In this document: one piece after another, positions 1 through 64,000 of the stretch
Layout: every line of letters begins with the position of its first letter
Numbering within the stretch: the stretch's first letter is position 1
From: Lepisosteus oculatus
Lineage: Eukaryota > Chordata > Actinopteri > Semionotiformes > Lepisosteidae
DNA: 64,000 bases
Direction: 5' to 3'
Assembly: GCF_040954835.1 (NCBI RefSeq)
Contig: NC_090718.1
Span: forward strand, 15,949,532-16,013,531
Made by a program: the position numbers and the translations under genes
Notes under the pieces: generated by a model
What the model saw: the letters and a program-made list of their open reading frames with translations, nothing else
Databases searched by the model: none
Told to the model about the DNA's origin: nothing

Positions 1-142
1 GTATGCAGACCACTGGAGAGACCGGTTGTTTTTTGCCAGGCAGACTAATGGCTGCATATTCAATTCCAGCTACTGAACCAGCAAGTGGGACAGTGTTTGA
101 AAACCCTTTCAATGAAAGGTTTGTAGAACAGTGTTGCTATTG

Positions 143-211
143 TTCTGTTTAATTCGAGGTCACCAAGCTTATAAATGGTCTCACAACGTTTGTCTCTTTT
201 CAGGTTTCTCC
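143..211. repeat. Short duplicated block A1
   Basis: This stretch, containing aagcttataaatggtctcac and a cag followed by gtttctc, recurs in the same unit at 10373-10447 (A2). The two diverge completely after about base 211. Both include a pyrimidine-rich stretch ending in cag, so the shared piece could be an intron end plus acceptor, but that is a guess. Confidence 0.7.
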
Positions 212-985
212 GACCCGGAGAGTGAACAAAGAAGTGATAAGGGCCCATAACACCTAAGCTCGGCACTCTCACACTCTTCAGCCACACGAGCTTCCTCCTG
301 GTAAAATACTGGGCAAGCCCCTTTCTGACAGGGACAGTGGAAAACCCCCTGAGGGAGATGGGCTGAGGGGAGGAATAAAACCATCTGAGCCGGAACGGAG
401 CGCGCTCCCGATTCCCACTAGACCCGGGAGACGACACAGGCAGCACAAGGGAAGCTGCGGCGCTCGAGTTCACGGAGGCAAGGACCGATTGACGACCACG
501 GGAGACAGTGGCATCGGAACAGAGGTACTGTACAGAGACTTTTAATACCTGAAGGCAAGGAGCGAGAAACCGGCCCGGCTAGCCGCTCCAAACTGAGGGG
601 AATGGAATACAGTTCGCGGGAGGATTTCTAGTGGAACCTGAACGGAGTCTGGGGAAATGGGACCGGCCTCTCGTTCACTGGGGCCATCAAAGACTTTACA
701 GGTACGAAGAAGAATCGTTCGAGTGGCCACTCTTCGGTACTTGACAGAAAAGACTGCCGTCCCTCTGGATTCATTATGACCCTTGGAAGGACCTTTTGTT
801 GCTGCTGTTTTCGTTGTGTCTTTGGCTGATGGTGAAAGTGGATAGAAAATAAAAAGGTCACTTATACGATACACATGCTTGTCGCTGGTCTGTGTGGGCA
901 TTGGTGGATCTGGAAGATCAACAGAACCTGTTGCATTGCTAGGTGCCGTAGTCATATATGAGGCAGGAAATAATTGTTGTTTGAG
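200..985. other. GC-rich unassigned block
   Basis: Mostly GC-rich DNA with many CpG sites and open frames on the minus strand that I regard as compositional. An AATAAA sits at about 847 on the plus strand. I considered a worn LTR because of a promoter-like then polyadenylation-like layout, but I found no matching ends or target duplication. The block recurs at 17993, 35854 and 53555 with very few changes. I do not recognise it. Confidence 0.5.
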
Positions 986-993
986 GGGTCACC

Positions 994-1770
994 TCACTCT
1001 GACACGAACGTGTTGGGAAGACGCGCCAGTTCTGACGTTAGTGCGATGGGTCTGTAGGCATTAAGGCAGGTTCTTGTGTCCTTTTTTGGAACAGGAACAA
1101 TAACAGAAGATTTGAAGCAGTCTGGCACTGTGCACTGGGACAATGATTGCTTAAAAACGTCTGTAAAGATTGGAGCGAGTTGGCCAGCACAGGGCTGTAG
1201 TGTGGCTGGAGATACACAGTCAGGTCCTGCTGCCTTTTTACAGTTTTGCTTTTTGAATAGCCTTAACACATCCTGTTCTTTGCTTCACAGGGCATTCTCA
1301 AGACTTGTTAACGGCGTCAAGTCTTCGTGAGAGATTGAGTGTGAGTGGGTGTGGCACTCCAGTTGAGTGGGGGACAATAGCTCATCCCCAGGATGTGAAT
1401 TATTTGGAGGAGTTGCGAGACTGCCATGGACAAGGTCGTTGGAGATCCTTTGTGTTTCAGGCCTGCTGTAAAATGTGTTATCTGGTAGAGAGTGATCAAG
1501 ATGTATCTGAGGGGATTTTCTTTTGTAATTGGTAACAGTTTGGAGACCTTTCCAGACAGATAAACAGTCTTTGTTAGCAAACAGTTGTTCCAGCTGTGGA
1601 CAGGAGGGGAAACAAAAGGTAGAGAACACTATTTTTAGAGAAATGGTCCTAAAGGAACAAAGCATACTGTAGGATGCCACTAGCTTAAGTCTTAACAGCA
1701 CTGCATAAGAGGAGACTCCAGTGTCTATTTGTTCCGAGGGATCCTCAGAAAGGTCAAAAGGTTGCAAACA
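994..1770 (-). mobile_element. LINE fragment A: linker and start of reverse transcriptase
   Basis: Read on the minus strand, this encodes part of a non-LTR retrotransposon ORF2. The first part (1767-1285) has the pre-RT linker typical of fish LINEs, including VWKGLQTVTNYK and LPDNTFYSR. The second part (1269-994) has the RT fingers region with KKAAGPDCVSP, FKSSVIVPVPKK and LNAYRPIALTS. Both parts lie in one frame, separated by a single in-frame TGA near 1285. Similarity is lost right after YRPIALTS, so the palm with the YADD motif, the C-terminus and the 3' tail are absent, as is the endonuclease. It is a dead fragment. The clade is probably L2/CR1/Rex-like, by memory of motif style only. Confidence 0.85.
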
Positions 1771-1899
1771 GATAGGAGACTGGTTACATGCCTGAAGCTT
1801 AGCTAGAGGAACATAACAGTGCTGGAATTCTGAGAGGGGAGGTTATCAGAGCCTAATGTTATTGCGAAAAATGGCAACTAGGCATAGACGATCTGCTGA

Positions 1900-2499
1900 A
1901 TAATAATAATAATAATAATAATAATTGCTTACACTTATATAGCGCTTTTCTGGACACTCCACTCAAAGCACTTTACAGGTAATGGGGACTCCCCTCCACC
2001 ACCACCAATGTGCAGCATCCACCTGGATGATGCGACGGCAGCCATAGTGCGCCAGAACGCTCACCACACATCAGCTATCAGTGGGGAGGAGAGCAGAGTA
2101 ATGTAGCCAATTCATAGAAGGGGATTATTAGGAGGCCATGATTGGTAAGGGCCAATTGGAAATTTGGCCAGGATGCCGGGGTTACACCCCTACTCTTTTC
2201 GAGAAGCACACCTACACCCCTACTCTTTTCGAGATTTTTAATGACCACAGAGAGTCAGGACCTCGGTTTTACATCTCATCCGAAGGACAGCGCCTGTTTA
2301 CAGTATAGTGTCCCCATCACTATACTGGGGCATTAGGACCCACATGGACCACAGGGTGAGCACCCCCTGCTGGCCCCACTAACACCTCTTCCAGCAGCAA
2401 CCTTAGTTTTTCCCAGGAGGTCTCCCATCCAGGTACTGACCAGGCTCACACCTGCTTAGCTTCAGTGGGTTGCCAGTTGTGAGTTGCAGGGTGATATGG
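1900..2499 (-). mobile_element. 5S rRNA-derived SINE (SINE3 type) with L2-like tail
   Basis: On the minus strand the head, starting near 2500, is clearly derived from 5S rRNA. It keeps the internal pol III promoter: a box A-like gaagctaagcagg (complement of 2451-2463) and a box C-like ctggatgggagacc within the complement of 2419-2443. The 3' end has an L2/CR1-type tail with aagcgctatataagtg, then an (ATT)n run at 1901-1926. The direct repeat ctgctga flanks it (1893-1899 and 2500-2506), and the empty site in unit 3 has ctgatga once. The element looks full length at about 600 bases, with an internal near-repeat around 2185-2235. SINE3-type elements depend on a partner LINE for movement. Confidence 0.9.
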
Positions 2500-2756
2500 C
2501 TGCTGACTGTCTGTCCTGTGAATTGTTAAGGGTTTCATGTATTTGTGTGTCCAAGTAGTCCGGACTGCTGTGCTATGTGTTGTTTGTCTTTTGAATTTTC
2601 TGTTTTACACCTATTGTATCCATAGTGGTATGGGCCAAATCCAATTTAAAGGGTGTTGTGAGCACTGGGGTTTGTTGGGAGTGGTGAGTTAGGAGTCTGG
2701 AAATGAGAGCAAGGTGCGAGTGGATATGATAAAAAGATTGTTCCTTTATTTTGTTT

Positions 2757-3262
2757 CTGATACCTGGTGAAGAGACGCAGTGAGTGTTTGAGTGGCCAGC
2801 TGCGTCAACTTCAATAAAACTGGCCTTTTGGTTTGTTTGAGTGCTGACTTGCTATGGTGTATTTTTTCTCTCTGTGAACAACAGGTCCTACGGCCAACAC
2901 TACCCACACAGGAGGTGTGTGCGTGACAGCTCCTCAGCTGAAGCAGGAGTCCAAGTGTGCACAGATTTCTTGTTGGGGTTTGTTGTTTGAAGTTTCTGTT
3001 TGTATGTAGGAAGCAATTGTGCCATCGCGTGGCCCGAGTTATAGCACGGGACGAGAGCTCCCGAAGAGCGCCTGCCTCCTGCCCGATTCGACGTCTAAAA
3101 TCATCACAGAACGAGAGGAGCCAACAGGAATGCAAGTCTCTTCTGGTGAGGAGCCTCCAACACAGCCCCCAGTACTGGGTGTGCAGAAAGAATCCTGTTC
3201 TACAGTTGTGGTGCGAAATGGCCTCCAGTCCTTGTCAAATGCTGGGTTTCTCTGGACTGCAG
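2757..3262. repeat. Duplicated block E1
   Basis: This block of about 500 bases contains caataaaactggcc and a long shared stretch, and occurs again in the same unit at 8615-9095 (E2). Relative to E2, E1 has an extra stretch of about 35 bases near 3110-3145. Counterparts lie at 20553-21058, 37804-38309 and 56113-56618. The open frames on either strand do not resemble any family I know. The AATAAA at about 2813 could be a polyadenylation signal, with no independent support. Confidence 0.85.
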
Positions 3263-3432
3263 TCCCCTCCGCATTTGGATGATTGTGATTGGTGTTGCTG
3301 TAGCTGTGCTGTCCTGAGACTGACTGGTGTCAAGACCAGCTGTACTCTGGGATCAGCAGGGCCTAGTGGTGGTATGAATTGTGGCCTCTGTTTCTCAGGT
3401 GTAACAAGTGTTTGATTACTCTGTTCTGTATG

Positions 3433-3762
3433 TGTCACGGACGTCCAAAGGGACTTACCGTAGGGAGCAGGAGAGCGGAAAAAGACCCATATGCGTAGCG
3501 GCGAGACGGGAAAAAGGCCCGGGCTCATTAGTGCAAAGAGTTCAGGAATGCCGTATAGAAACCTATGCCCTCAGGGAGCGGACGTGGGGCGCCCTGGTGC
3601 TAGGCGGGTCTCAGGACATCCGGACAACAATGCTGAGCGAGGACAGAGTGCAAGACCCGGAAATATATAGCCCAAGGGAAAGAGAGGGACAGGAAGGACA
3701 GCAGACCGGAAACTAGGGACAGGACAGAGAAGGAGCGCCCTCTGGCTGCAGAGGGCGTGACA
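3433..3762. mobile_element. Solo LTR (fossil LTR retrotransposon), unit 1
   Basis: A 330-base insertion starts tgtcacg and ends cgtgaca, so it has the TG...CA ends of an LTR and a short terminal inverted repeat. The 5-base direct repeat gtatg flanks it (3428-3432 and 3763-3767), and unit 3 has the empty site. A TATA-like aatatatag lies near 3661. No internal retroelement sequence is attached, so it fits a solo LTR left by recombination between two LTRs. A Gypsy-type origin is suggested by the style of the ends but is not proven; a short non-autonomous DNA element is the alternative. It is young relative to the array split, since it is absent from the diverged block. Confidence 0.7.
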
Positions 3763-3865
3763 GTATGTTTATCAATAGTGGGTACTGGCCTAATTCAGCC
3801 CTGCACTCGCTGTTAGCTGTTTTTCTCTGCGCAAGGCGGATGTTTCTACAGATTGATTAGAGTTT

Positions 3866-4850
3866 CTACAGAGTGTACTCCTGGTCTGTGAGGGGACCCC
3901 ACACTTCACTGCCGTATAGGGCAATGGGTTGGATTACACTTTCAGATATTTGGAGCGAAATTCTTGTTGGTGGGTTGACATTGAAGAGCCTCCTTCTTAT
4001 TGCGTAGAAAGCCCTGAGTGCCTTCTCCCTCAGTGCCTTTAGTGCCAGGTCAAAACTCCCAGAAGAGCTGATGGTGAGACCGAGATATGTGTAGCTGGAT
4101 GTGTGCTCCAATGTGTTGTTGTTCAGTGTGAATTTGTACCTGTTTCCCTGAGGTCTGGCTTTCTCCTGGAAAACCATAACTCTGGTCTTGTCCAGATTGA
4201 CTGGCAGTGCCCAGGTGTGACAGTCCTGCTCCAGCAATGCCAGGCTCTGCTGTTCTGGGTCCAGATGGGCTGGCAGTGCCCAGGTGTGAATGTGATGGGA
4301 TGTGTGGCGGTTTGGTAGGAAGCCAGTCTGACTCTAATGCAGGACATTGTGCTCAGTAAGGAGGGCCGGTTATCAGATATTCAAGTTACGACAGAGTTCC
4401 TTCCCCAGGTTACTGTTCACACTGAAGCTCCGGTACCTGTTGGGGTCGAGTCTGTCTCCATTCTTACAGACGGGCGTGATCAGTCCTTGATTCCAGGCCT
4501 CAGGGAAACAGCCGGCCGTCAGGACGAGGTTGGGGAGTTTGAGCAGGCTTTGCTGCAGGTCTGAGCTGCAGTTGGATCAAGCGTTGTTGACTGTGTCTTG
4601 GCTACAGGCCTTTTGTGGTCTGAGAGTTGTCTGTTTGTGTATGTGCTTATCTTCTTTAGGGTGTGCATGTAGTGTCTAACCATCTCACAGTATCTGAGGC
4701 GCAGTTCAGAGTGGTGTGGTGTTGTTTTAGTTCTGGTAGTTCTCTTCAGTTGTTTCTGCACTCTGTATCAAACCATTTGATATTGTTTCTGAGTGTGTTT
4801 CATATGAATGTAGTCATTTTGATTTTAAGGCTAGTTTCTCAAAAACATGG
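3866..4850 (-). mobile_element. LINE fragment B: reverse transcriptase, internally deleted
   Basis: On the minus strand this reads, in ORF2 order: a pre-RT segment with RYCEMVRHYMHTLKK (about 4730-4640); the RT fingers with FPEAWNQGLITPVCKNGDRL (about 4515-4450); a segment with LTEHNVLH-like sequence (about 4350-4330); then, after loss of the catalytic palm, the thumb region with LPVNLDKTRVMVFQ, TYLGLTISSSGSFDLA and SVIQPIALYGSEVWGPL (4237-3866). The catalytic YADD region is absent and several frames are used, so the fragment is inactive. It is a different LINE from fragment A. The family is common in fish genomes; I do not assign a clade. Confidence 0.9.
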
Positions 4851-5660
4851 TTTATAAATTTATGCCCGATTTGTTGGTTTGATTCAGAGCGTTTTGAAAT
4901 GTAAGGGATCAAGTAATGGGTTTATTTGCTGCTGAAAAGAGAAGAAAGAAAAAAAAAAAGAAATGAGACAATTAGCTTGTAATGAGTTTATAACAACAGT
5001 AATTAGATTCCTGCAAGCACTCTTTTCATTGTCCAACAACTGAAAGCTTTTAGGTATAAAGGAAGGGTCCTCTAATATTTGATGTGTGAGCTTGTCGTTC
5101 TATTGGAGATGTTAGTGAGTCTGAGGATTCGTGTTAATATGACAATACTGCTACTACTATTAATAATACAGCATGGCAAGACTTCTTTCAGTCATTTCCC
5201 ACCCCTCCACCTCAGTGAATCACACATGTTAAACTTCCATCTCGGGTTCCAGATCAGACATGAGCAATCCTATATTACAAATACTTAGCACCAGGCAATT
5301 TAACCAGACAATAATTTAAGCAATTATTCATTCAAGAGAAGCAGCAGGACGAGTAAAGTGCCCCTCTGATGGCCGGTCAGTGGAATTAAACTGGAAAATT
5401 TCTTAGAAATGATTATTCTTACAATGATGTACCAATGGCGCCGCTTGGTGGTCATTCAGCAAAATTTCACCGAAGGTTTTTTTTAATTAAAATACCGTTA
5501 GTAATGTTCGTATTAATTAGTTATTTTAATTTTAAAAATATTTAAGCATTTTCAACAGCAAAGAATACATTGCCTTGCAAACAAGAGTAATGAATGAATG
5601 TATTGTACATGGATACAAAATACAAAATAAATACAATAAACCAAAAATTAAAATGACGTT
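4850..5660. other. AT-rich unassigned DNA
   Basis: AT-rich sequence with an A run near 4950, a (TACT/TAAT)-like patch near 5145 and several TTTTAATTTTAA-like tracts near 5525. A piece near 5372-5470, including ggtcagtggaattaaactgg, has a weaker relative near 11742-11880. I see no gene. Counterparts start near 22646, 39913 and 58206. Confidence 0.6.
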
Positions 5661-5664
5661 CAAA

Positions 5665-5860
5665 AGGCGCGAGTCGATGACGTCAGAAGGAAGTCGCCCA
5701 CGGGGCGTATGGGTAATGTAGTTTCTGTAGTTCTCTGGCCCGCACTGCCAACGTGTTTCGGTGATTTGATTGAACATCAGAATTAATTATATTGTACCAT
5801 TTCAGCGTGTTTGTCGTGTCATGGATTTCTATGACTGTCTTATGGGTTCTCTTGTGTGTC
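5665..5860. promoter_or_regulatory. Promoter-like module P1 (CRE, ETS and ZNF143-like motifs)
   Basis: The module has a perfect CRE palindrome tgacgtca (5678-5685), then ggaagt, an ETS-type core, then atgggtaatgtagt. The reverse of that last stretch, actacattacccat, resembles the ZNF143/Staf motif. Two relatives with the same order and spacing lie at 7595-7770 and 16405-16580. Counterparts: 23461, 40742 and 59021. The motifs are seen; promoter function is inference. A worn transposon carrying such motifs is an equal alternative. Confidence 0.4.
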
Positions 5861-6049
5861 ATGTTTATTTTAGTGGGTGGCAGTGCTGGGGCCCTGAACT
5901 GTAATCCTTCGTGTTAAGTATTTGTTACTGTGACCCTCCTGGGAGGAGGGGACCTTTGTAAGATTCCTGTCCTGGCAAGCAGCAGGTGAGAGTTTGCTGT
6001 CCGACTCAATTACACCTCCGCTACCTCATTTCACCTCTTTCACCAGCCT

Positions 6050-6525
6050 GTAAAGGGGGTTGTGATAGTATGGGGTCTTTCTCTTTAACAACCTCAAACC
6101 GCAGGAAAGAAATGCTTCATTTATAAGATTGAAATATAACCAGAAAGTATAAAAATAGCTATTTGTGTGTATCATGTCAGAAATATTTGTTTTTATTTTA
6201 AAAGAATTTAGAAGAGAAATATGATTAATAAGGCAGTAGAATCCATTTAAACTGTCATTTTCCTGTTTAGGTTGGAAAGTTTAATTTGATCAAGTCCACT
6301 TGAGTGCCTAAGCAACTGTTTGGGTAGTTTGGCTGGTGTGGTGGTGCTCTCCAAATACCTGATCCAAACGGACAGAGAGACAAAGTGAGAAAGAAAAGGT
6401 GTAAATAACAGACATATCATATATCATTTGCAGAATACAGTAATGTGCTGTTCAGCACAGTGACCTAGAGTGAAGATGGAAATCAGTCATTCTAGTGCTC
6501 TCAATGGTTTTCCATTACAAACGGA
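6050..6525. repeat. Duplicated block C1
   Basis: About 470 bases starting at taaagggggttgtgatagta. A diverged copy, C2, lies at 10764-11135. Shared landmarks are ttaacaacctcaaac, gaaatgcttcattt, aataaggcagtagaat, ggacagagagacaaagtgag and agagtgaagatggaaatca. The first bases, with tagtatgggg, also match the end of every unit near 17770. Counterparts: 23846, 41129 and 59406. No coding signal is seen. Confidence 0.8.
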
Positions 6526-7064
6526 CCAGGGCTTCCTGAGACACAGGCAGTTGGAGTTATATAGAGTTAGAGGTTGTTTTCACGGCACCAGCCGACTAAA
6601 GCAGAGACCTCCTTCCACTCCAGAATTTTTTTTTTTATTTGGGTGGGATCATCTGGAGTCTTGATTCCTTTCACGGAGTCAGCAGTAGATACACAGCTGT
6701 TAGCATAGGAGGAGTACAGAAGAGGTGACAGCAGTGCTGGGGACCCTCTGGCACAACCAGAGGTGTGAAATTGAAATTGTTTGGAAGGAATGGGAAGCTA
6801 AAGGCAGAGTCACAATCTCTGATTCATGTAATCAAAACAGTAAGTTCTTTCCTCGGGCAGCTTCGTTAGAACATTTTAAATAGATGTAAAAGTGTATTTA
6901 CAGACTATATCAGCCCTTATCTTTATTTACCTGGTTTAATCTTTTTTTCAGAAGTGTAAATATATTATACTATGTACCCCTGATGGAATTATTGATGTGC
7001 TATAAATATACTCTTGTTTGTATTGTATCTATTTTTATTGCTACAATAAAAAGTTAAAAAGAAC
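6526..7064. other. Unassigned DNA with a tail related to M modules
   Basis: The 6880-7050 part, with tttacctggtttaatctttt and tactatgtacccctga, is a diverged relative of segments at about 7430-7560 and 16265-16370, so it is a third partial copy of the M family. A T run lies near 6626. In unit 3 an extra 23 bases (near 41817), bounded by ggaccct on both sides, are present. The other units look like the product of a deletion between those two short repeats. Confidence 0.55.
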
Positions 7065-7594
7065 TGCACTTTCGAGAAATGTCCACTGGGCGGCGACAGA
7101 GATACACGAGTCTATGGCGGCGAGTCCAATAGCGCCTCCGTACAGATCCTCGTTGTGCAGAGATTGAAAATCAATACAGATGATAACTGTGACGTTTGTG
7201 ACAGCAACTCTGAAAGATAACGTAAAGAAGGAAACTAATATTGACATTACTTTTAAAGAAGTTAAATAATACTACATTTTAAACCTATTGAAAGTAATAT
7301 GAAAATATCGTTTGTATTTAAAAAAATATGATACTTCCACGATATAATAATTAACGAAATGCTGTGAGAGGAGACCCATGTTTAAACACTTTAAAACGGA
7401 TGTAAATGCGTCTGTACAGACAATTTGAAACATGGACGGACCTCATCTGCTTTTGTTTACTATTAAACAAGATTACTTGTTTAATCTTTTTCCATAACAT
7501 GTACATGTATTATCGTATGTACCCCTGACTATACTCTGTGTTATATGTATTCTTGTTTTTATGGCATGTATTGTTGTTATATTTAAAAATAAAA

Positions 7595-7770
7595 AGACGC
7601 GACTCGATTACGTCAAAAGGAAGTCGCCACAGGGCTTGTGGGAAATGTAGTCTCCATAGTGCTCTGGACTGCGCTCCACACGTGTTCCGCAGATTTGATT
7701 GAGCATCAGAATTAATTATACAATGTCAGTGTATTTACCGTGTCGCGGATTTCTATGTTTGTCTTACAAG
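7595..7770. promoter_or_regulatory. Promoter-like module P2
   Basis: Same arrangement as P1 with a degenerate CRE (ttacgtca at 7608-7615), ggaagtcgcc, and then a stretch whose reverse reads actacatttcccacaagccc. That is the best ZNF143-like match of the three. It sits inside long module M1. Counterparts: 25391, 42684 and 60951. Confidence 0.4.
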
Positions 7771-8103
7771 ACGGACTCGGCAGGAGCTGTTTCTTGCTCT
7801 CCGGAGTGAAGCTGTTCTGGGAAGAGACGAGCAAATCTTTAGACTCTTTGTAAATGAGACATCATCATGACAGCTGTGCCGACCTGCTCTTTATTGACCT
7901 GTTGAACCTGTTTGTGTAAAGAGCAGGAGTCTTGTGTACCCCTGATTGTGTTATGTGTACTCTAGTGTGTTTGCAGCGCTCGTCCTGCCTGGTTTATCAA
8001 CTCGACACAGAAACAAAACCCACTGCCGTCGTGTCTGTGGGTTTCTGAGCTCTCTTGTCTTGTTTGTCTCCTTTGTTTATTTTACTTTGTTAAATAAAAC
8101 GTG

Positions 8104-8117
8104 GTTGCCGGGGCAAC
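8104..8117. promoter_or_regulatory. RFX X-box-like palindrome
   Basis: gttgccggggcaac matches the established X-box form GTTGCC-N2-GGCAAC bound by RFX factors. It recurs at 25900-25913, 43201-43214 and 61460-61473. The matching places in M2 and M3 have gttgccggggaaac and gttgctggggaaac, which break the right half. A chance match or a methylation-decayed relic is possible. Confidence 0.35.
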
Positions 8118-8479
8118 GGAGCTGCAGTAGTTGTTGCCGGAGCGGGTCTGACCTCCAGCAGGTCAACAGGCGGCTTTTTTAATCTAATCTCCGAGAAAAA
8201 CAGAAACTTAAGAAACTTGAGTCTAAAAAGCGCTGGCTGGAGTATTTTGTGGAAGAAACGGTGACTCGCAGGCTGTGGGACAGAACTATCAGGGACACAT
8301 CAGCGCTGGACACCAGCCTCACACCGCTGGGCTCACTGCACCATGAGCGAGTCCGTCGGCGCCTCCTCCTGCTGGGGTGTGTTACTGCAGGAGTGAGGAG
8401 TCTCCGGTCTCCGGTCGCGTCATGATCTGCAGGTGGAGGTGAGAGACGGCGGCAGCGCTGGGAGCCTGGATTTAGTTCC

Positions 8480-8614
8480 TGGGGTGCTGTCTGTGTGGAG
8501 TTTGCATGCTCTGCCTGTGTTCTCATGGGTCCTGTTCATGGGGTGCTGTCTGTGTGGAGTCTGCATGCTCTGCCCCTGTTCTCATGGGTCTGGTTTCCTG
8601 GGGTGCTGTCTGTG
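8480..8614. repeat. 60-bp minisatellite, short form, unit 1
   Basis: Two and a part repeats of a 60-base unit built on ggtgctgtctgtgtggagtc, followed by tgcatgctctgcc. The unit is the conserved core of a tRNA-derived SINE (the vertebrate V-SINE-like core, whose common form reads gtgtggagtttgcatgttct). The last repeat stops at gtggatacctgg, where block E2 begins. Confidence 0.85.
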
Positions 8615-9095
8615 TGGATACCTGGTGAAGAGACCCAGTGAGTGTTTGTGTGGCCAGCTGCGTCAACTTCAATAAAACTGGCCTTTTGGTTTGTTTGAGT
8701 GCTGACTTGCTATGGTGTATTTTTTCTCTCTGTGAACAACACGTCCTACGGCCAACACTACCCACACAGGAGGTGTGTGCGTGACAGCTCCTCAGCTGCA
8801 GCAGGAGTCCAAGTGTGCACAGATTTCTTGTTGGGTTTTGTTGTTTGAAGTTTCTGTTTGTATGTAGGAAGCAATTGTGCCATCGCGTGGTCCGAGTTAT
8901 AGCACGGGACGAGAGCTCCCGAAGAGCGCCTGCCTCCTGCCCGATTCAACGTCTAAAATCATCACAGAACGGTGAGGAGCCTCTGACACAGCCCCCAGTA
9001 CTGGGTGTGCAGAAAGAATCCTATTGTACAGTCTTGGTGTGAAATGGCCTCCAGTTCTTGTAACATGATGGGTTTCTCTGGACTGCAGTCCCAGT
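8615..9095. repeat. Duplicated block E2
   Basis: Second copy of block E within the unit. In unit 1 it reads gcgtggtccgag and gggacgagagc, like E1. In units 2, 3 and 4 E2 reads tgtggtccgag and gcgaccagagc. The unit 1 form is best explained by conversion from E1. Counterparts: 26423-26903, 44276-44756 and 61971-62451. Confidence 0.85.
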
Positions 9096-10185
9096 GCACT
9101 CCGCTTTGGATTTGCAGTGGTGTTTTCTACAATGGAAAACCCTTTGTTTGTACAGAATGGAAATGGCAGTCTGCATGTTTTAATAATCTAATGTGATCAT
9201 GTACTACAGCTTAAACACTGAGCCAGGTGACGTTTGATTCTAAAAGATTTCTCTATCATTTCAGCGGCGCCTTGTCTGCGGCAGCCCGGCAGCTCCTCCT
9301 CCCTTCCAGCTGAGACTCTTCCCTCTCCAGAGGTGGGTTAGTGCTCTCAGGTCATCTTCTCTCACACAGCTGTGGGGCAGAAACGCTACTTCCACTGGGC
9401 AGAGAGCAGACGGGCAGTGGGAAGGGCAGCCCTGTGTTTGGGGATCAGGGCTGTCCCTGCTGAGGGATGCTTTCAGAGCCAAAGCAACTGGCTGGGTTAT
9501 GAACTTTATGGTGTGATCCAAATATGACATACAAAGACAGAGAATGAGAAAGAAATAGTATTGCATGTATCTGATCAAAACAGTCTCTTTCAGACAAAAC
9601 AAATATTGAACAAAAACTTAGTTGCAACACACTGCACTACACTTTCTTCTAGGCTGACATTACTGATAGTTTGTGCTGTCTTCCTTTCAGTCTGCAGGGT
9701 GTGCATCTTTTTCCTCAGCTTCCTACACGAGGAATCAGTTTCTCCTGCCCTGGTTTCACTCCTTTATATCTCACAATCTTCTGCAGCTCCTGGAGGCTGA
9801 CGACATGTTTGCTGTTTCTGAAAAATTGCTGACTGGCTCATCAGCACAATTGCTGATTCAAAATCCTTTACTCACATGTTGCCTTAGCCTCTGTATCACA
9901 GAGATGTCTTCTGGGTTGGGTAGATCGATAGTGTGCTTTTGCTCAGTTGCTCTGCTCAATGCGTGGTCTTTTAACTCCGGCTGGGTACGAGCACCTCACT
10001 CTCCACACGGCTTTCCAAGGCTCTGTCATCGTGTGTGAGGATGTTGTGTAGCTCGTGAAACAGTTCCCCCATTTGAGCCCTGGATTTACTGGGTACTTGA
10101 ATACCTGAATCTTGCCGTCAGTCCTGATCACCTTGTTTTTGTTCTGCAAGGACAAGGCACCTCCCCAGCACTGAACACAAACTGA
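9096..10185. other. Unassigned DNA with possible exon at 9265-9332
   Basis: No recognised gene or element. A stretch at 9265-9332 is preceded by ctctatcatttcag and followed by gtgggt, so it has acceptor- and donor-like edges and an open plus-strand frame, but nothing in its translation is familiar. Another acceptor-like cttcctttcag lies near 9680. The plus-strand frame 9673-10038 is open for 121 codons in all four units, which the near identity of the units explains without selection. Confidence 0.35.
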
Positions 10186-10358: not shown

Positions 10359-10432
10359 TGAAAATGTCTGACTTCCGTTTAATTTGAGGTCACAAGCTTA
10401 TAAATGGTCTCACAACGTTTGTCTCATCTCAG

Positions 10433-10534: not shown

Positions 10535-10763
10535 GTGAGTATTGTTTTGCTCTTGTAACATGAAACATCAAAGAGAAGTCAACAGACTATTCCGTGAAAC
10601 TGTTCAGACTGGCCCGTGGTGATTTTCTGGGTCCTTTAGTAAGCTGTCCGGGACTGTGTCATCGACACACTTTGTGAGAAGCCAGTCTGTGTGTTTGCTC
10701 TTGTGATCATTCGTGAACGAATGTAAGAGAGTGTAAGAGAGGGAGAAGATTCGGCCCTGGAGT

Positions 10764-19688: not shown

Positions 19689-19692
<4 letters not shown>

Positions 19693-54348: not shown

Positions 54349-55125
54349 TCACTCTGACACGAACGTGTTGGGAAGACGCGCCAGTTCTGACGTTAGTGCG
54401 ATGGGTCTGTAGGCATTAAGGCAGGTTCTTGTGTCCTTTTTTGGAACAGGAACAATAACAGAAGATTTGAAGCAGTCTGGCACTGTGCACTGGGACAATG
54501 ATTGCTTAAAAACGTCTGTAAAGATTGGAGCGAGTTGGCCAGCACAGGGCTGTAGTGTGGCTGGAGATACACAGTCAGGTCCTGCTGCCTTTTTACAGTT
54601 TTGCTTTTTGAATAGCCTTAACACATCCTGTTCTTTGCTTCACAGGGCATTCTCAAGACTTGTTAACGGCGTCAAGTCTTCGTGAGAGATTGAGTGTGAG
54701 TGGGTGTGGCACTCCAGTTGAGTGGGGGACAATAGCTCATCCCCAGGATGTGAATTATTTGGAGGAGTTGCGAGACTGCCATGGACAAGGTCGTTGGAGA
54801 TCCTTTGTGTTTCAGGCCTGCTGTAAAATGTGTTATCTGGTAGAGAGTGATCAAGATGTATCTGAGGGGATTTTCTTTTGTAATTGGTAACAGTTTGGAG
54901 ACCTTTCCAGACAGATAAACAGTCTTTGTTAGCAAACAGTTGTTCCAGCTGTGGACAGGAGGGGAAACAAAAGGTAGAGAACACTATTTTTAGAGAAATG
55001 GTCCTAAAGGAACAAAGCATACTGTAGGATGCCACTAGCTTAAGTCTTAACAGCACTGCATAAGAGGAGACTCCAGTGTCTATTTGTTCCGAGGGATCCT
55101 CAGAAAGGTCAAAAGGTTGCAAACA
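54349..55125 (-). mobile_element. LINE fragment A in unit 4
   Basis: The translated remnant is identical to that of unit 1. It shares with unit 1 the base in catactgta, where units 2 and 3 have catagtgta. Confidence 0.85.
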
Positions 55126-55254
55126 GATAGGAGACTGGTTACATGCCTGAAGCTTAGCTAGAGGAACATAACAGTGCTGGAATTCTGAGAGGGGAGGTTA
55201 TCAGAGCCTAATGTTATTGCGAAAAATGGCAACTAGGCATAGACGATCTGCTGA

Positions 55255-55855
55255 ATAATAATAATAATAATAATAATAATTGCTTACACTTATATAGCGC
55301 TTTTCTGGACACTCCACTCAAAGCACTTTACAGGTAATGGGGACTCCCCTCCACCACCACCAATGTGCAGCATCCACCTGGATGATGCGACGGCAGCCAT
55401 AGTGCGCCAGAACGCTCACCACACATCAGCTATCAGTGGGGAGGAGAGCAGAGTAATGTAGCCAATTCATAGAAGGGGATTATTAGGAGGCCATGATTGG
55501 TAAGGGCCAATTGGAAATTTGGCCAGGATGCCGGGGTTACACCCCCTACTCTTTTCGAGAAGCACACCTACACCCCTACTCTTTTCGAGATTTTTAATGA
55601 CCACAGAGAGTCAGGACCTCGGTTTTACATCTCATCCGAAGGACAGCGCCTGTTTACAGTATAGTGTCCCCATCACTATACTGGGGCATTAGGACCCACA
55701 TGGACCACAGGGTGAGCACCCCCTGCTGGCCCCACTAACACCTCTTCCAGCAGCAACCTTAGTTTTTCCCAGGAGGTCTCCCATCCAGGTACTGACCAGG
55801 CTCACACCTGCTTAGCTTCAGTGGGTTGCCAGTTGTGAGTTGCAGGGTGATATGG
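55255..55855 (-). mobile_element. 5S-derived SINE in unit 4
   Basis: Same insertion with direct repeats at 55248-55254 and 55856-55862. One extra C in a C run near 55545 distinguishes it from unit 1. Confidence 0.9.
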
Positions 55856-56788
55856 CTGCTGACTGTCTGTCCTGTGAATTGTTAAGGGTTTCATGTATTT
55901 GTGTGTCCAAGTAGTCCGGACTGCTGTGCTATGTGTTGTTTGTCTTTTGAATTTTCTGTTTTACACCTATTGTATCCATAGTGGTATGGGCCAAATCCAA
56001 TTTAAAGGGTGTTGTGAGCACTGGGGTTTGTTGGGAGTGGTGAGTTAGGAGTCTGGAAATGAGAGCAAGGTGCGAGTGGATATGATAAAAAGATTGTTCC
56101 TTTATTTTGTTTCTGATACCTGGTGAAGAGACGCAGTGAGTGTTTGAGTGGCCAGCTGCGTCAACTTCAATAAAACTGGCCTTTTGGTTTGTTTGAGTGC
56201 TGACTTGCTATGGTGTATTTTTTCTCTCTGTGAACAACAGGTCCTACGGCCAACACTACCCACACAGGAGGTGTGTGCGTGACAGCTCCTCAGCTGAAGC
56301 AGGAGTCCAAGTGTGCACAGATTTCTTGTTGGGGTTTGTTGTTTGAAGTTTCTGTTTGTATGTAGGAAGCAATTGTGCCATCGCGTGGCCCGAGTTATAG
56401 CACGGGACGAGAGCTCCCGAAGAGCGCCTGCCTCCTGCCCGATTCGACGTCTAAAATCATCACAGAACGAGAGGAGCCAACAGGAATGCAAGTCTCTTCT
56501 GGTGAGGAGCCTCCAACACAGCCCCCAGTACTGGGTGTGCAGAAAGAATCCTGTTCTACAGTTGTGGTGCGAAATGGCCTCCAGTCCTTGTCAAATGCTG
56601 GGTTTCTCTGGACTGCAGTCCCCTCCGCATTTGGATGATTGTGATTGGTGTTGCTGTAGCTGTGCTGTCCTGAGACTGACTGGTGTCAAGACCAGCTGTA
56701 CTCTGGGATCAGCAGGGCCTAGTGGTGGTATGAATTGTGGCCTCTGTTTCTCAGGTGTAACAAGTGTTTGATTACTCTGTTCTGTATG

Positions 56789-57118
56789 TGTCACGGACGT
56801 CCAAAGGGACTTACCGTAGGGAGCAGGAGAGCGGAAAAAGACCCATATGCGTAGCGGCGAGACGGGAAAAAGGCCCGGGCTCATTAGTGCAAAGAGTTCA
56901 GGAATGCCGTATAGAAACCTATGCCCTCAGGGAGCGGACGTGGGGCGCCCTGGTGCTAGGCGGGTCTCAGGACATCCGAACAACAATGCTGAGCGAGGAC
57001 AGAGTGCAAGACCCGGAAATATATAGCCCAAGGGAAAGAGAGGGACAGGAAGGACAGCAGACCGGAAACTAGGGACAGGACAGAGAAGGAGCGCCCTCTG
57101 GCTGCAGAGGGCGTGACA
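56789..57118. mobile_element. Solo LTR, unit 4
   Basis: Same insertion and target duplication (56784-56788 and 57119-57123). It shares ccgaacaac with unit 2 where unit 1 has ccggacaac. Confidence 0.7.
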
Positions 57119-57221
57119 GTATGTTTATCAATAGTGGGTACTGGCCTAATTCAGCCCTGCACTCGCTGTTAGCTGTTTTTCTCTGCGCAAGGCGGATGTT
57201 TCTACAGATTGATTAGAGTTT

Positions 57222-58205
57222 CTACAGAGTGTACTCCTGGTCTGTGAGGGGACCCCACACTTCACTGCCGTATAGGGCAATGGGTTGGATTACACTTTCA
57301 GATATTTGGAGCGAAATTCTTGTTGGTGGGTTGACATTGAAGAGCCTCCTTCTTATTGCGTAGAAAGCCCTGAGTGCCTTCTCCCTCAGTGCCTTTAGTG
57401 CCAGGTCAAAACTCCCAGAAGAGCTGATGGTGAGACCGAGATATGTGTAGCTGGATGTGTGCTCCAATGTGTTGTTGTTCAGTGTGAATTTGTACCTGTT
57501 TCCCTGAGGTCTGGCTTTCTCCTGGAAAACCATAACTCTGGTCTTGTCCAGATTGACTGGCAGTGCCCAGGTGTGACAGTCCTGCTCCAGCAATGCCAGG
57601 CTCTGCTGTTCTGGGTCCAGATGGGCTGGCAGTGCCCAGGTGTGAATGTGATGGGATGTGTGGCGGTTTGGTAGGAAGCCAGTCTGACTCTAATGCAGGA
57701 CATTGTGCTCAGTAAGGAGGGCCGGTTATCAGATATTCAAGTTACGACAGAGTTCCTTCCCCAGGTTACTGTTCACACTGAAGCTCCGGTACCTGTTGGG
57801 GTCGAGTCTGTCTCCATTCTTACAGACGGGCGTGATCAGTCCTTGATTCCAGGCCTCAGGGAAACAGCCGGCCGTCAGGACGAGGTTGGGGAGTTTGAGC
57901 AGGCTTTGCTGCAGGTCTGAGCTGCAGTTGGATCAAGCGTTGTTGACTGTGTCTTGGCTACAGGCCTTTTGTGGTCTGAGAGTTGTCTGTTTGTGTATGT
58001 GCTTATCTTCTTTAGGGTGTGCATGTAGTGTCTAACCATCTCACAGTATCTGAGGCGCAGTTCAGAGTGGTGTGGTGTTGTTTTAGTTCTGGTAGTTCTC
58101 TTCAGTTGTTTCTGCACTCTGTATCAAACCATTTGATATTGTTTCTGAGTGTGTTTCATATGAATGTAGTTATTTTGATTTTAAGGCTAGTTTCTCAAAA
58201 ACATG
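57222..58205 (-). mobile_element. LINE fragment B in unit 4
   Basis: Counterpart of the unit 1 fragment with the same translated remnants. One visible private change is gtagttatt near 58169, where units 1 and 2 have gtagtcatt. Confidence 0.9.
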
Positions 58206-61200
58206 GTTTATAAATTTATGCCCGATTTGTTGGTTTGATTCAGAGCGTTTTGAAATGTAAGGGATCAAGTAATGGGTTTATTTGCTGCTGAAAAGAGAAG
58301 AAAGAAAAAAAAAAAGAAATGAGACAATTAGCTTGTAATGAGTTTATAACAACAGTAATTAGATTCCTGCAAGCACTCTTTTCATTGTCCAACAACTGAA
58401 AGCTTTTAGGTATAAAGGAAGGGTCCTCTAATATTTGATGTGTGAGCTTGTCGTTCTATTGGAGATGTTAGTGAGTCTGAGGATTCGTGTTAATATGACA
58501 ATACTGCTACTACTATTAATAATACAGCATGGCAAGACTTCTTTCAGTCATTTCCCACCCCTCCACCTCAGTGAATCACACATGTTAAACTTCCATCTCG
58601 GGTTCCAGATCAGACATGAGCAATCCTATATTACAAATACTTAGCACCAGGCAATTTAACCAGACAATAATTTAAGCAATTATTCATTCAAGAGAAGCAG
58701 CAGGACGAGTAAAGTGCCCCTCTGATGGCCGGTCAGTGGAATTAAACTGGAAAATTTCTTAGAAATGATTATTCTTACAATGATGTACCAATGGCGCCGC
58801 TTGGTGGTCATTCAGCAAAATTTCACCGAAGGTTTTTTTTAATTAAAATACCGTTAGTAATGTTCGTATTAATTAGTTATTTTAATTTTAAAAATATTTA
58901 AGCATTTTCAACAGCAAAGAATACATTGCCTTGCAAACAAGAGTAATGAATGAATGTATTGTACATGGATACAAAATACAAAATAAATACAATAAACCAA
59001 AAATTAAAATGACGTTCAAAAGGCGCGAGTCGATGACGTCAGAAGGAAGTCGCCCACGGGGCGTATGGGTAATGTAGTTTCTGTAGTTCTCTGGCCCGCA
59101 CTGCCCACGTGTTTCGGTGATTTGATTGAACATCAGAATTAATTATATTGTACCATTTCAGCGTGTTTGTCGTGTCATGGATTTCTATGACTGTCTTATG
59201 GGTTCTCTTGTGTGTCATGTTTATTTTAGTGGGTGGCAGTGCTGGGGCCCTGAACTGTAATCATTCGTGTTAAGTATTTGTTACTGTGACCCTCCTGGGA
59301 GGAGGGGACCTTTGTAAGATTCCTGTCCTGGCAAGCAGCAGGTGAGAGTTTGCTGTCCGACTCAATTACACCTCCGCTACCTCATTTCACCTCTTTCACC
59401 AGCCTGTAAAGGGGGTTGTGATAGTATGGGGTCTTTCTCTTTAACAACCTCAAACCGCAGGAAAGAAATGCTTCATTTATAAGATTGAAATATAACCAGA
59501 AAGTATAAAAATAGCTATTTGTGTGTATCATGTCAGAAATATTTGTTTTTATTTTAAAAGAATTTAGAAGAGAAATATGATTAATAAGGCAGTAGAATCC
59601 ATTTAAACTGTCATTTTCCTGTTTAGGTTGGAAAGTTTAATTTGATCAAGTCCACTTGAGTGCCTAAGCAACTGTTTGGGTAGTTTGGCTGGTGTGGTGG
59701 TGCTCTCCAAATACCTGATCCAAACGGACAGAGAGACAAAGTGAGAAAGAAAAGGTGTAAATAACAGACATATCATATATCATTTGCAGAATACAGTAAT
59801 GTGCTGTTCAGCACAGTGACCTAGAGTGAAGATGGAAATCAGTCATTCTAGTGCTCTCAATGGTTTTCCATTACAAACGGACCAGGGCTTCCTGAGACAC
59901 AGGCAGTTGGAGTTATATAGAGTTAGAGGTTGTTTTCACGGCACCAGCCGACTAAAGCAGAGACCTCCTTCCACTCCAGAATTTTTTTTTTTATTTGGGT
60001 GGGATCATCTGGAGTCTTGATTCCTTTCACGGAGTCAGCAGTAGATACACAGCTGTTAGCATAGGAGGAGTACAGAAGAGGTGACAGCAGTGCTGGGGAC
60101 CCTCTGGCACAACCAGAGGTGTGAAATTGAAATTGTTTGGAAGGAATGGGAAGCTAAAGGCAGAGTCACAATCTCTGATTCATGTAATCAAAACAGTAAG
60201 TTCTTTCCTCGGGCAGCTTCGTTAGAACATTTTAAATAGATGTAAAAGTGTATTTACAGACTATATCAGCCCTTATCTTTATTTACCTGGTTTAATCTTT
60301 TTTTCAGAAGTGTAAATATATTATACTATGTACCCCTGATGGAATTATTGATGTGCTATAAATATACTCTTGTTTGTATTGTATCTATTTTTATTGCTAC
60401 AATAAAAAGTTAAAAAGAACTGCACTTTCGAGAAATGTCCACTGGGCGGCGACAGAGATACACGAGTCTATGGCGGCGAGTCCAATAGCGCCTCCGTACA
60501 GATCCTCGTTGTGCAGAGATTGAAAATCAATACAGATGATAACTGTGACGTTTGTGACAGCAACTCTGAAAGATAACGTAAAGAAGGAAACTAATATTGA
60601 CATTACTTTTAAAGAAGTTAAATAATACTACATTTTAAACCTATTGAAAGTAATATGAAAATATCGTTTGTATTTAAAAAAATATGATACTTCCACGATA
60701 TAATAATTAACGAAATGCTGTGAGAGGAGACCCATGTTTAAACACTTTAAAACGGATGTAAATGCGTCTGTACAGACAATTTGAAACATGGACGGACCTC
60801 ATCTGCTTTTGTTTACTATTAAACAAGATTACTTGTTTAATCTTTTTCCATAACATGTACATGTATTATCGTATGTACCCCTGACTATACTCTGTGTTAT
60901 ATGTATTCTTGTTTTTATGGCATGTATTGTTGTTATATTTAAAAATAAAAAGACGCGACTCGATTACGTCAAAAGGAAGTCGCCACAGGGCTTGTGGGAA
61001 ATGTAGTCTCCATAGTGCTCTGGACTGCGCTCCACACGTGTTCCGCAGATTTGATTGAGCATCAGAATTAATTATACAATGTCAGTGTATTTACCGTGTC
61101 GCGGATTTCTATGTTTGTCTTACAAGACGGACTCGGCAGGAGCTGTTTCTTGCTCTCCGGAGTGAAGCTGTTCTGGGAAGAGACGAGCAAATCTTTAGAC

Positions 61201-61835
61201 TCTTTGTAAATGAGACATCATCATGACAGCTGTGCCGACCTGCTCTTTATTGACCTGTTGAACCTGTTTGTGTAAAGAGCAGGAGTCTTGTGTACCCCTG
61301 ATTGTGTTATGTGTACTCTAGTGTGTTTGCAGCGCTCGTCCTGCCTGGTTTATCAACTCGACACAGAAACAAAACCCACTGCCGTCGTGTCTGTGGGTTT
61401 CTGAGCTCTCTTGTCTTGTTTGTCTCCTTTGTTTATTTTACTTTGTTAAATAAAACGTGGTTGCCGGGGCAACGGAGCTGCAGTAGTTGTTGCCGGAGCG
61501 GGTCTGACCTCCAGCAGGTCAACAGGCGGCTTTTTTAATCTAATCTCCGAGAAAAACAGAAACTTAAGAAACTTGAGTCTAAAAAGCGCTGGCTGGAGTA
61601 TTTTGTGGAAGAAACGGTGACTCGCAGGCTGTGGGACAGAACTATCAGGGACACATCAGCGCTGGACACCAGCCTCACACCGCTGGGCTCACTGCACCAT
61701 GAGCGAGTCCGTCGGCGCCTCCTCCTGCTGGGGTGTGTTACTGCAGGAGTGAGGAGTCTCCGGTCTCCGGTCGCGTCATGATCTGCAGGTGGAGGTGAGA
61801 GACGGCGGCAGCGCTGGGAGCCTGGATTTAGTTCC

Positions 61836-61970
61836 TGGGGTGCTGTCTGTGTGGAGTTTGCATGCTCTGCCTGTGTTCTCATGGGTCCTGTTCATGGGGT
61901 GCTGTCTGTGTGGAGTCTGCATGCTCTGCCCCTGTTCTCATGGGTCTGGTTTCCTGGGGTGCTGTCTGTG
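61836..61970. repeat. 60-bp minisatellite, short form, unit 4
   Basis: Same short form and left flank as unit 1, including the lack of the 12 bases found in unit 2. Confidence 0.85.
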
Positions 61971-63541
61971 TGGATACCTGGTGAAGAGACCCAGTGAGTG
62001 TTTGTGTGGCCAGCTGCGTCAACTTCAATAAAACTGGCCTTTTGGTTTGTTTGAGTGCTGACTTGCTATGGTGTATTTTTTCTCTCTGTGAACAACACGT
62101 CCTACGGCCAACACTACCCACACAGGAGGTGTGTGCGTGACAGCTCCTCAGCTGCAGCAGGAGTCCAAGTGTGCACAGATTTCTTGTTGGGTTTTGTTGT
62201 TTGAAGTTTCTGTTTGTATGTAGGAAGCAATTGTGCCATCGTGTGGTCCGAGTTATAGCACGCGACCAGAGCTCCCGAAGAGCGCCTGCCTCCTGCCCGA
62301 TTCGACGTCTAAAATCATCACAGAACGGTGAGGAGCCTCTGACACAGCCCCCAGTACTGGGTGTGCAGAAATAATCCTATTGTACAGTTTTGGTGTGAAA
62401 TGGCCTCCAGTTCTTGTAACATGATGGGTTTCTCTGGACTGCAGTCCCAGTGCACTCCGCTTTGGATTTGCAGTGGTGTTTTCTACAATGGAAAACCCTT
62501 TGTTTGTACAGAATGGAAATGGCAGTCTGCATGTTTTAATAATCTAATGTGATCATGTACTACAGCTTAAACACTGAGCCAGGTGACGTTTGATTCTAAA
62601 AGATTTCTCTATCATTTCAGCGGCGCCTTGTCTGCGGCAGCCCGGCAGCTCCTCCTCCCTTCCAGCTGAGACTCTTCCCTCTCCAGAGGTGGGTTAGTGC
62701 TCTCAGGTCATCTTCTCTCACACAGCTGTGGGGCAGAAACGCTACTTCCACTGGGCAGAGAGCAGACGGGCAGTGGGAAGGGCAGCCCTGTGTTTGGGGA
62801 TCAGGGCTGTCCCTGCTGAGGGATGCTTTCAGAGCCAAAGCAACTGGCTGGGTTATGAACTTTATGGTGTGATCCAAATATGACATACAAAGACAGAGAA
62901 TGAGAAAGAAATAGTATTGCATGTATCTGATCAAAACAGTCTCTTTCAGACAAAACAAATATTGAACAAAAACTTAGTTGCAACACACTGCACTACACTT
63001 TCTTCTAGGCTGACATTACTGATAGTTTGTGCTGTCTTCCTTTCAGTCTGCAGGGTGTGCATCTTTTTCCTCAGCTTCCTACACGAGGAATCAGTTTCTC
63101 CTGCCCTGGTTTCACTCCTTTATATCTCACAATCTTCTGCAGCTCCTGGAGGCTGACGACATGTTTGCTGTTTCTGAAAAATTGCTGACTGGCTCATCAG
63201 CACAATTGCTGATTCAAAATCCTTTACTCACATGTTGCCTTAGCCTCTGTATCACAGAGATGTCTTCTGGGTTGGGTAGATCGATAGTGTGCTTTTGCTC
63301 AGTTGCTCTGCTCAATGCGTGGTCTTTTAACTCCGGCTGGGTACGAGCACCTCACTCTCCACACGGCTTTCCAAGGCTCTGTCATCGTGTGTGAGGATGT
63401 TGTGTAGCTCGTGAAACAGTTCCCCCATTTGAGCCCTGGATTTACTGGGTACTTGAATACCTGAATCTTGCCGTCAGTCCTGATCACCTTGTTTTTGTTC
63501 TGCAAGGACAAGGCACCTCCCCAGCACTGAACACAAACTGA

Positions 63542-63714
63542 TACTGGCGGGTTGATTGTGTTGTGGTGTGAGTTTGTGTCTGTGGGGGTGAGGTGTCCCC
63601 TGCAGCGCGAACAAACATGCAGACTCCACACAGACAGCAGCCCTGGAATCAAACCCAGGGCCCCGGTGCTATGAGGCAGCGATGCTAACCACTGTGCCGC
63701 AGTGTTGCCCCCTT
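63542..63714 (-). mobile_element. tRNA-derived SINE pieces, unit 4
   Basis: Counterpart near the right end of the window, with the same box A and box B sequences. Confidence 0.75.
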
Positions 63715-64000
63715 TGAAAATGTCTGACTTCCGTTTAATTTGAGGTCACAAGCTTATAAATGGTCTCACAACGTTTGTCTCATCTCAGGTTTCTCTGACC
63801 AGGCCCAAGGACCTGTAGTCACTGACAGCTTCTGCAGTCTGACGGTTCATTTCAGTAGGCTGGAGGGATGGCGCAATTATCCTCAAATCAGTGAGTATTG
63901 TTTTGCTCTTGTAACATGAAACATCAAAGAAAAGTCAACAGACTATTCCGTGAAACTGTTCAGACTGGCCCGTGGTGATTTTCTGGGTCCTTTAGTAAGC

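Follow-up and report, generated by a model that had tools for sequence, protein, structure and literature searches.

What fills 64,000 nucleotides of a fish chromosome with giant units joined head to tail: a cluster of genes, a device for organising chromatin, a flaw of assembly, or a repeat proper to chromosome ends? The question is raised by a stretch of the gar Lepisosteus oculatus (assembly GCF_040954835.1, contig NC_090718.1), here called the window, which comprises C26:15949532-16013531 at its full length of 64,000 nt; unit coordinates below are window positions unless a contig is named. A previous sequence-only reading had described three full units of 17793, 17861 and 17701 bases and part of a fourth, without a recognisable gene, and had compared them with the human macrosatellites D4Z4 and DXZ4. 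With a probability of roughly 85%, we interpret the window as the interior of a subtelomeric macrosatellite array, one of a family with units of mostly 12-19 kb that occupies many chromosome ends, is homogenised both locally and across ends, and most likely has a passive role.

The window is made up of four units, all in the same direction:
1-17793, + strand: repeat unit 1, 17,793 bp, whose + strand faces the near end of C26
17794-35654, + strand: repeat unit 2, 17,861 bp
35655-53355, + strand: repeat unit 3, 17,701 bp, a mosaic
53356-64000, + strand: repeat unit 4, partial, the first 10,645 bp, running on beyond the window

Since the first 60 bases are identical in all four units and the last 30 in the three full ones, no DNA lies between them. 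The dominant spacings of 24-mers shared within the window (17,796/17,808, 17,853/17,861, 35,5xx-35,6xx and 53,356), the long collinear plus-strand matches of the window with itself in BLAST, and the alignment of units agree with the lengths and order first read from the letters, and no minus-strand repeat appeared in the same self-BLAST at E 1e-10. Aligned identity amounts to 99.83% between units 1 and 2 (31 mismatches), 99.89% between units 1 and 4, and 99.92% between units 2 and 4; unit 3 is 98.4-98.9% identical to the other three and carries most of the large indels. Unit 1 itself is partly composed of older internal duplications, which pair 2759-3280 with 8617-9111 at 89%, 7989-8546 with 16630-17186 at 79%, and 16692-17163 with 17256-17678 at 75%. 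Copies were counted with a single 30-base marker at about unit position 7228, allowing up to one mismatch, and every copy number rests on this one marker. On C26 it occurs 14 times, from 15,916,228 to 16,133,387, so that the array, which extends from about 15,912,600 to 16,134,500, continues past both window edges, as had been proposed.

Within this assembly (1.2 Gb in 813 contigs, 29 of them chromosome-scale and thus offering 58 ends), the units lie near chromosome ends and face outwards. C26 measures 16,198,172 bp and carries TTAGGG up to its last base, from which the window is 185-249 kb away. For a 1-kb probe (window 1-1000), the best 40 of 480 candidates all matched at 95-100% over about the whole query and fell on 13 contigs. 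The unit marker had 104 matches in the genome (47 forward, 57 reverse), compared with 0 in a reversed-pattern control. Among the 100 positions that were analysed, 99 are on chromosome-scale contigs, including 3 in the interior of C14, and 1 is on the unplaced C45; with C14 left aside, 96 of 96 chromosomal markers lie on the "-" strand if close to a contig start and on the "+" strand if close to a contig end. At least 16 ends on 14 chromosomes bear arrays, namely C7, C9, C10, C12, C16, both ends of C19, C21, C22, C26, both ends of C27, C28, C29, C31 and C32. At 12 of these 16 ends, 46-65 kb separate the contig end from the nearest marker, and at C16, the C19 start, C7 and C22 the distance is 74-166 kb (median of all 16, 62 kb); telomere repeats were directly seen at three, the starts of C9 and C27 (CCCTAA) and the end of C26. 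Kilobase-scale head-to-tail units without spacers and many copies per array, as counted in the assembly, are typical of macrosatellites; confinement to one or a few specific loci, typical too, does not apply to 16 ends, the C14 interior and the unplaced C45. Because of its presence on many ends, we file the sequence as a subtelomeric repeat family with macrosatellite-like arrays, and the marks of such a family (several chromosomes near their ends, uniform orientation, exchange between non-homologous ends) were all found in this one assembly.

Each end has its own characteristic unit spacing: 18,792/18,794/18,795 on C10, 15.5-15.6 kb at the end of C27, 16.6-18.8 kb on C26 except for one spacing of 4.6 kb, and mostly 11.6-15.5 kb in the array of at least 25 markers at the C19 start (C19:83777-434508). 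We read this as local amplification. At the same C19 start, spacings of 14.4/14.2/13.5 kb recur in this order, resembling a higher-order repeat. Copies on other chromosomes, some of them partial, mostly diverge from unit 1 by 0.5-3% per 300 bp, with few windows higher. Local spread within the C26 array can be followed by two insertions:
1901-2507, - strand: short interspersed element (SINE) of about 607 bp with a 5S rRNA-derived head (2389-2507) and an (ATT)n tail
3433-3762, no strand assigned: 330-bp insert resembling a long terminal repeat (LTR), TGTCACGG...GTGACA, with the flanking 5-bp duplication GTATG

The SINE recurs in units 2 and 4, with 5S heads at 20185-20303 and 55745-55863, and unit 3 shows the empty site near 37,552. 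A clear target duplication could not be seen around the element. Likewise, the LTR-like insert is present in units 1, 2 and 4, and unit 3 has a single GTATG in its place. The SINE occurs in eight of eight C26 loci (L001-L008), a set picked for closeness to unit 1 that includes window units 1, 2 and 4. As both sites are empty in copies from C9, C10, C12, C14, C16 and C29, the two insertions were most likely born in the C26 array and then spread among its units. Relatives of the LTR-like insert, at 72-79%, are found in the C28 distal block (L018; for distal blocks see below), within about 2 kb of retroelement open reading frames (ORFs). A C10 unit carries a 94%-similar 5S-headed SINE at another site (L025:4316-4898; unit position about 6053), and this different site means that the SINE family entered the arrays more than once.

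Probable exchange between ends shows in unit 3, which departs from its neighbours chiefly between unit positions of about 900-1,500 and 8,700:
36555-44350, + strand: tract of unit 3, 7-8 kb, that resembles C29/C12/C16 units over its neighbours
38986-39386, + strand: 69-bp minisatellite, expanded in unit 3, 5.8 copies
43478-44279, + strand: 60-bp minisatellite with 13.4 copies in unit 3, compared with 2.4 copies of a 59-bp period in units 1, 2 and 4

The left edge of the tract lies at about 36,550-37,150, the right edge is diffuse (about 44,050-44,650), and the tract is itself mosaic at 39,555-40,154. In segments A, B, D and E of unit 3, the best of C12/C16 reaches 98.7-99.75% versus 96.1-97.9% for units 1, 2 and 4, and the flanks of unit 3 match unit 1 at 99.67% and 99.75%, the right one having been compared without C12. 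We further compared unit 3 with a 9.9-kb stretch of C29, excluding the minisatellite windows 38955-39554 and 43455-44354, which align badly to unit 1. Left of the tract (35655-36554), unit 3 differs from unit 1 at 0 of 900 positions and from C29 at 11 of 900; over 36555-37154 the two comparisons are nearly equal (2 and 5 differences); and over 36555-38954 plus 39555-43454 it differs from C29 at 32 of 6,297 positions versus 113 of 6,245 from unit 1. The expansions of the 60-bp and 69-bp minisatellites are present on C29 too, within a single alignment of 8.3 kb at 99.2%. Among the best 40 of 392 candidates scored for a 1-kb tract probe (40500-41499), there were another copy on C26 without any difference, two on C29 that differ by about one mismatch, others at 99% on C19, C31, C12, C27, C28, C10, C32 and C29, and, at 95%, five C26 copies of the type of unit 1. 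The plain reading of these alignments would be an exchange between chromosome ends, followed by more shuffling.

Do the units encode anything? Pfam searches of unit 1, translated in six frames and with stops written as X, gave no match above the curated cut-off, hence no homeobox and no ORF family such as a helicase, and ten separate ORFs likewise gave none, only RVT_1 at E 0.066 and a chance match at E 0.21; these frame scans had no positive control and missed a remnant of a long interspersed element (LINE), so their sensitivity is limited. The strongest sub-threshold match of the unit 1 frames was DUF4716 (E 0.0062, 17 bits vs a cut-off of 27), followed by TEX19 (E 0.16) and BBE (E 0.21). 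A phmmer search of the 8183-8422 frame against PDB returned one match only, at E 0.4. In a codon-usage scan, with a human codon table and a control in which a best score per shuffle of 16.0 marks about the 90th percentile, only three minisatellite frames (29.7-39.0) stood clear of the control; the next was a LINE piece (16.4), and the few exon-like short frames, for instance 13750-13869 at 12.4, stayed within the control range. Regarding RNA, ARAGORN in its bacterial setting found no tRNA, eight flanking loci had no Rfam match at gathering level, and the sole such match in the window is the 5S rRNA in the SINE head. A 5S rRNA gene array was rejected, as this head is absent from unit 3, and an array of rRNA, snRNA (small nuclear RNA) or tRNA genes, which should hold an RNA gene per unit, finds nothing else to build on. 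Thus, the earlier impression of units without a recognisable gene holds above Pfam cut-offs and with a SINE head as the only Rfam match. Further recognisable sequence in unit 1 is repetitive:
3869-4561, - strand: LINE reverse-transcriptase remnants; RVT_1 below cut-off, E 0.066, at 3869-4333, and 4394-4561 judged by eye
12754-12999, - strand: LINE C-terminal-like fragment, a by-eye reading of the translation unconfirmed by Pfam
15342-15855, + strand: 50-bp minisatellite rich in G+C and CpG, with 10.2 copies in unit 1, 11.2 in unit 2 and 8.2 in unit 3

Since 50 is not a multiple of 3, this minisatellite is open in all three frames. CpG-rich windows include 15251-15750 (observed/expected 1.12) and 15501-16000 (0.95), with others elsewhere.

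In addition, each unit carries short modules and one conspicuously uniform stretch:
5671-5866, + strand: promoter-like module A, with TGACGTCA, AGGAAGTC, ACTACATTNCCCA on the - strand
7592-7766, + strand: promoter-like module B, paralogous to A
16409-16604, + strand: promoter-like module C, paralogous to A
8063-8546, + strand: module with the palindromic X-box-like site GTTGCCGGGGCAAC (8104-8117), with paralogous copies at 16692-17186 and 17256-17678
6070-6820, no strand assigned: low-diversity stretch, 13 segregating sites vs 33 expected among eight copies

Modules A, B and C have TGACGTCA-like, AGGAAGTC-like and ACTACATTNCCCA-like sites in common, and a full unit holds three X-box-like places (one mismatched) and three ACTACATTNCCCA sites. 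The motif names used here (cAMP response element or CRE, ETS-like, X-box-like, CTCF-like) refer to resemblance to a consensus pattern. CTCF-like, X-box-like and ACTACATTNCCCA sites number 9, 17 and 11 in the window vs 1.5, 1.05 and 1.4 in whole-window shuffles, an excess that is inflated because the unit repeats and the palindromic X-box is counted on both strands. The nine CTCF-like matches, to a loose consensus, all have one mismatch, and three fall within the SINE that unit 3 lacks. One such consensus (CCAGCAGGGGGTG, one mismatch) was noticed inside the SINE at 1901-2507, in a stretch common to units 1, 2 and 4. The promoter-like and X-box-like motifs are only leads. At 6070-6820, 13 of 743 sites vary among the eight copies (block-permutation p 0.0025, the region having been picked after seeing the data), and folding of the same stretch gave no RNA-structure signal (z -0.94; 3 of 20 shuffles equally good).

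Several observations weigh against our interpretation. The near-telomere position is direct at three ends and inferred at the rest; the first 10 kb of C28 and of C32 are without telomere repeats, and masking affects part of several ends. Copy number comes from a single marker, with 100 of its 104 positions analysed, and these occupy only 16 of the 58 chromosome-scale ends. The starts of C1, C5, C6 and C8 have telomere repeats and none of the 100 analysed markers, hence the array is not at every end. As to unit 3, segment C is non-discriminating, C10 and C14 are no nearer to it than its neighbours in segments D and E, and 39555-40154 shows the opposite trend (11 differences from C29 vs 9 from unit 1), so that donor and history of the tract are not simple. 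Moreover, C26 holds a second unit-3-like unit (C26:16059917), and the tract could therefore be an old polymorphism common to ends instead of one recent transfer. Finally, the low diversity of 6070-6820 hints at selection or at a conversion sweep and may reflect constraint.

How do other explanations fare with these data? The second close copy of unit 3 in the C26 array would fit a scenario in which both unit types are ancestral residents of C26, arrays on different chromosomes are old duplicates without exchange, and unit 3 is simply an old divergent unit. We regard this as quite improbable, since unit 3 is about 99.7% identical to unit 1 outside the tract and nearer to C29/C12 inside it, and over 1 kb of the tract it differs from two C29 units by about one mismatch but from unit-1-type units on C26 by 5%. 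That the assembler repeated one or a few real units, or chained haplotypes, appears slightly less probable still. Units 1, 2 and 4 are 99.8-99.9% alike, which is where assemblers fail, and the assembly has 813 contigs and some N stretches; some arrays may be mis-assembled. Nevertheless, copying by the assembler would have to account for the mismatches between units 1 and 2, the changing minisatellite copy numbers, the empty SINE and LTR-like sites in unit 3, and same-orientation arrays with end-specific unit lengths on 16 ends; precise empty sites, minisatellite copy differences and an inter-chromosomal mosaic unit lower this concern, as far as letters can.

A functional unit is the other type of explanation. 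Each unit could hold a multi-exon gene with exons too short for our scans, and the modules with CRE, ETS-like, ACTACATTNCCCA and X-box-like sites, the CpG-rich stretches in every unit, the few exon-like frames (13750-13869), the weak DUF4716 match and the low-diversity stretch would suit a tandem gene cluster; given nothing above the Pfam cut-off in six frames of unit 1 and ten ORFs, a codon-usage scan that leaves only minisatellite frames clear of its control, and no RNA-structure signal at 6070-6820, we consider such a cluster improbable, if less so than the two scenarios above. Least likely of all is a chromatin organiser confined to one locus, like DXZ4 or D4Z4, with which the sequence-only reading had compared the array. 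Its description of a macrosatellite-like array stands, and large tandem units without a gene found, a CpG-rich minisatellite and the loose-consensus CTCF-like sites (9 vs 1.5 expected) would suit such an organiser. Against it stand single-orientation arrays on at least 16 chromosome ends, the lack of a homeobox in the six-frame Pfam scan of unit 1, and the make-up of the nine CTCF-like matches, which all carry one mismatch, lie in three cases in the SINE missing from unit 3, and owe part of their excess to unit repetition. Another unlikely idea, to which we still grant more than to any of these four rivals, is that the arrays are kept up as the vertebrate equivalent of yeast Y' elements, serving as a dedicated recombination buffer and back-up for the chromosome end. 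The modules (CRE/ETS/ACTACATTNCCCA, X-box-like, CpG-rich minisatellite) would then drive germ-line non-coding transcription, through which the subtelomere would stay accessible to exchange or be marked as heterochromatin, and the one-way orientation and low-diversity 6070-6820 would be signs of selection.

According to our preferred interpretation, a subtelomeric family homogenised within and between ends, arrays would gain and lose units internally, through unequal exchange or break-induced replication, and these events would make neighbours alike and give each end its own unit length. Less often, copying or crossing may take place between different chromosome ends, perhaps during telomere clustering in meiosis, which would keep arrays on different chromosomes alike (95-99% in best-scoring matches) and would create mosaics such as unit 3. 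The role is most likely passive: the sequence looks like a non-coding recombination substrate and a spacer between genes and chromosome end, and not like a gene array or a DXZ4/D4Z4-like device.

C26 is the best-seen end, and its order is the arm with a trehalase gene, the outward-facing units, a distal block (about 60 kb) that contains pieces of retroelements and is partly shared with other ends, and TTAGGG. The trehalase coding stretch (Pfam PF01204, E 2e-33; L031:5634-6200) lies about 5 kb to the inner side of the array and is the nearest gene found there. Some 20 kb of the distal block of about 60 kb were examined; its locus L011 has a GIY-YIG frame slightly under the cut-off (20.7 vs 22.6 bits), and in the distal block of C32 a reverse transcriptase, which we read as Ty3-like, passes its cut-off with 86.7 bits. 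Pieces of the distal block are common to the seven sampled ends (C7, C9, C26, C27, C28, C29 and C32) at 93-99% in the main alignments, with additional matches of 75-78% in repeated retroelement parts. A distal-block marker, allowing up to two mismatches, had seven matches, on C9, C26, C27 (both ends), C29, C32 and C45, all contigs that also have the unit marker; ends without it may be masked, truncated or truly without the block. At its opposite end (2501-2900), C26 carries a satellite with a period of about 206 bp. The satellite occurs at the starts of C20, C21, C33 and C34 as well (L057, L051, L052, L059 and L060 for the five contigs) and may be centromeric or pericentromeric. In the interior of C14 (60.0 Mb), two + unit markers lie at 37.89 and 37.93 Mb (G000:C14:37894174-38335891; L027, L070). 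They are followed at 38.00 Mb by distal-block sequence that runs the opposite way and matches L015/L016 at 95-96%, and at 38.34 Mb by a one-mismatch unit marker on the - strand. The arrangement looks like two subtelomeres placed head to head, through an end-to-end fusion or a scaffolding join.

Subtelomeres are often absent or collapsed in vertebrate assemblies. The gar units are long enough to hold dozens of differences and sit on at least 16 ends, so that local amplification and inter-chromosomal exchange can be distinguished and mapped to the edges of tracts; given several individuals, they could also be counted per generation. End-to-end joins, as on C14, are easier to spot with this repeat, which also helps to judge chromosome ends in other assemblies. 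Moreover, a subtelomeric family accounts for giant units with no gene found without a special chromatin role.

Among known systems, the human and primate macrosatellites (D4Z4, DXZ4, RNU2) are alike in having head-to-tail kilobase-scale units and large arrays, and D4Z4 is subtelomeric too. Reported sizes are 3.3 kb, in 8 to >100 units, for D4Z4 (PMC13138017) and 3 kb for DXZ4 (PMC3218863). The gar unit is 5-6 times larger, its arrays occupy at least 16 ends instead of one or two loci, and no homeobox or snRNA gene was found in it. DXZ4 binds CTCF in each unit, and the CTCF-like sites of the gar window are nine predicted one-mismatch consensus matches only; whereas each D4Z4 unit holds the double-homeobox DUX4 ORF, the Pfam scan of gar unit 1 was without a homeobox. 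Tandem rRNA, histone and snRNA gene arrays also have kilobase units, evolve in concert and may sit on several chromosomes, but the gar unit has no RNA gene except the 5S-derived SINE head, and no coding sequence was found in it. Closer are the subtelomeric duplication patchworks of humans and other primates, in which blocks are common to non-homologous ends through inter-chromosomal exchange; the gar shows the same sharing and exchange, but its subtelomere consists largely of one tandem unit type. Among the open-access papers listed, no title or abstract beginning described such an array.

The most instructive comparison is with the Y' elements of Saccharomyces cerevisiae, which are large and subtelomeric, occur at many but not all ends, are often tandem and in one orientation, and are kept alike by exchange. 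The gar arrays resemble them in occupying many but not all ends, in tandem arrangement, in single orientation and in exchange between ends; they differ in their longer unit, in which no helicase or other ORF was found, and in that Y' elements touch the telomere repeats, whereas other shared sequence separates the gar copies from the contig end, with the nearest copy of each end 46-166 kb away. That subtelomeric repeats evolve in concert is an accepted idea, and the principle underlying our model is known; what is, to our knowledge, new is to meet it in a unit this large, with no gene found, arrayed on so many ends of a vertebrate genome.

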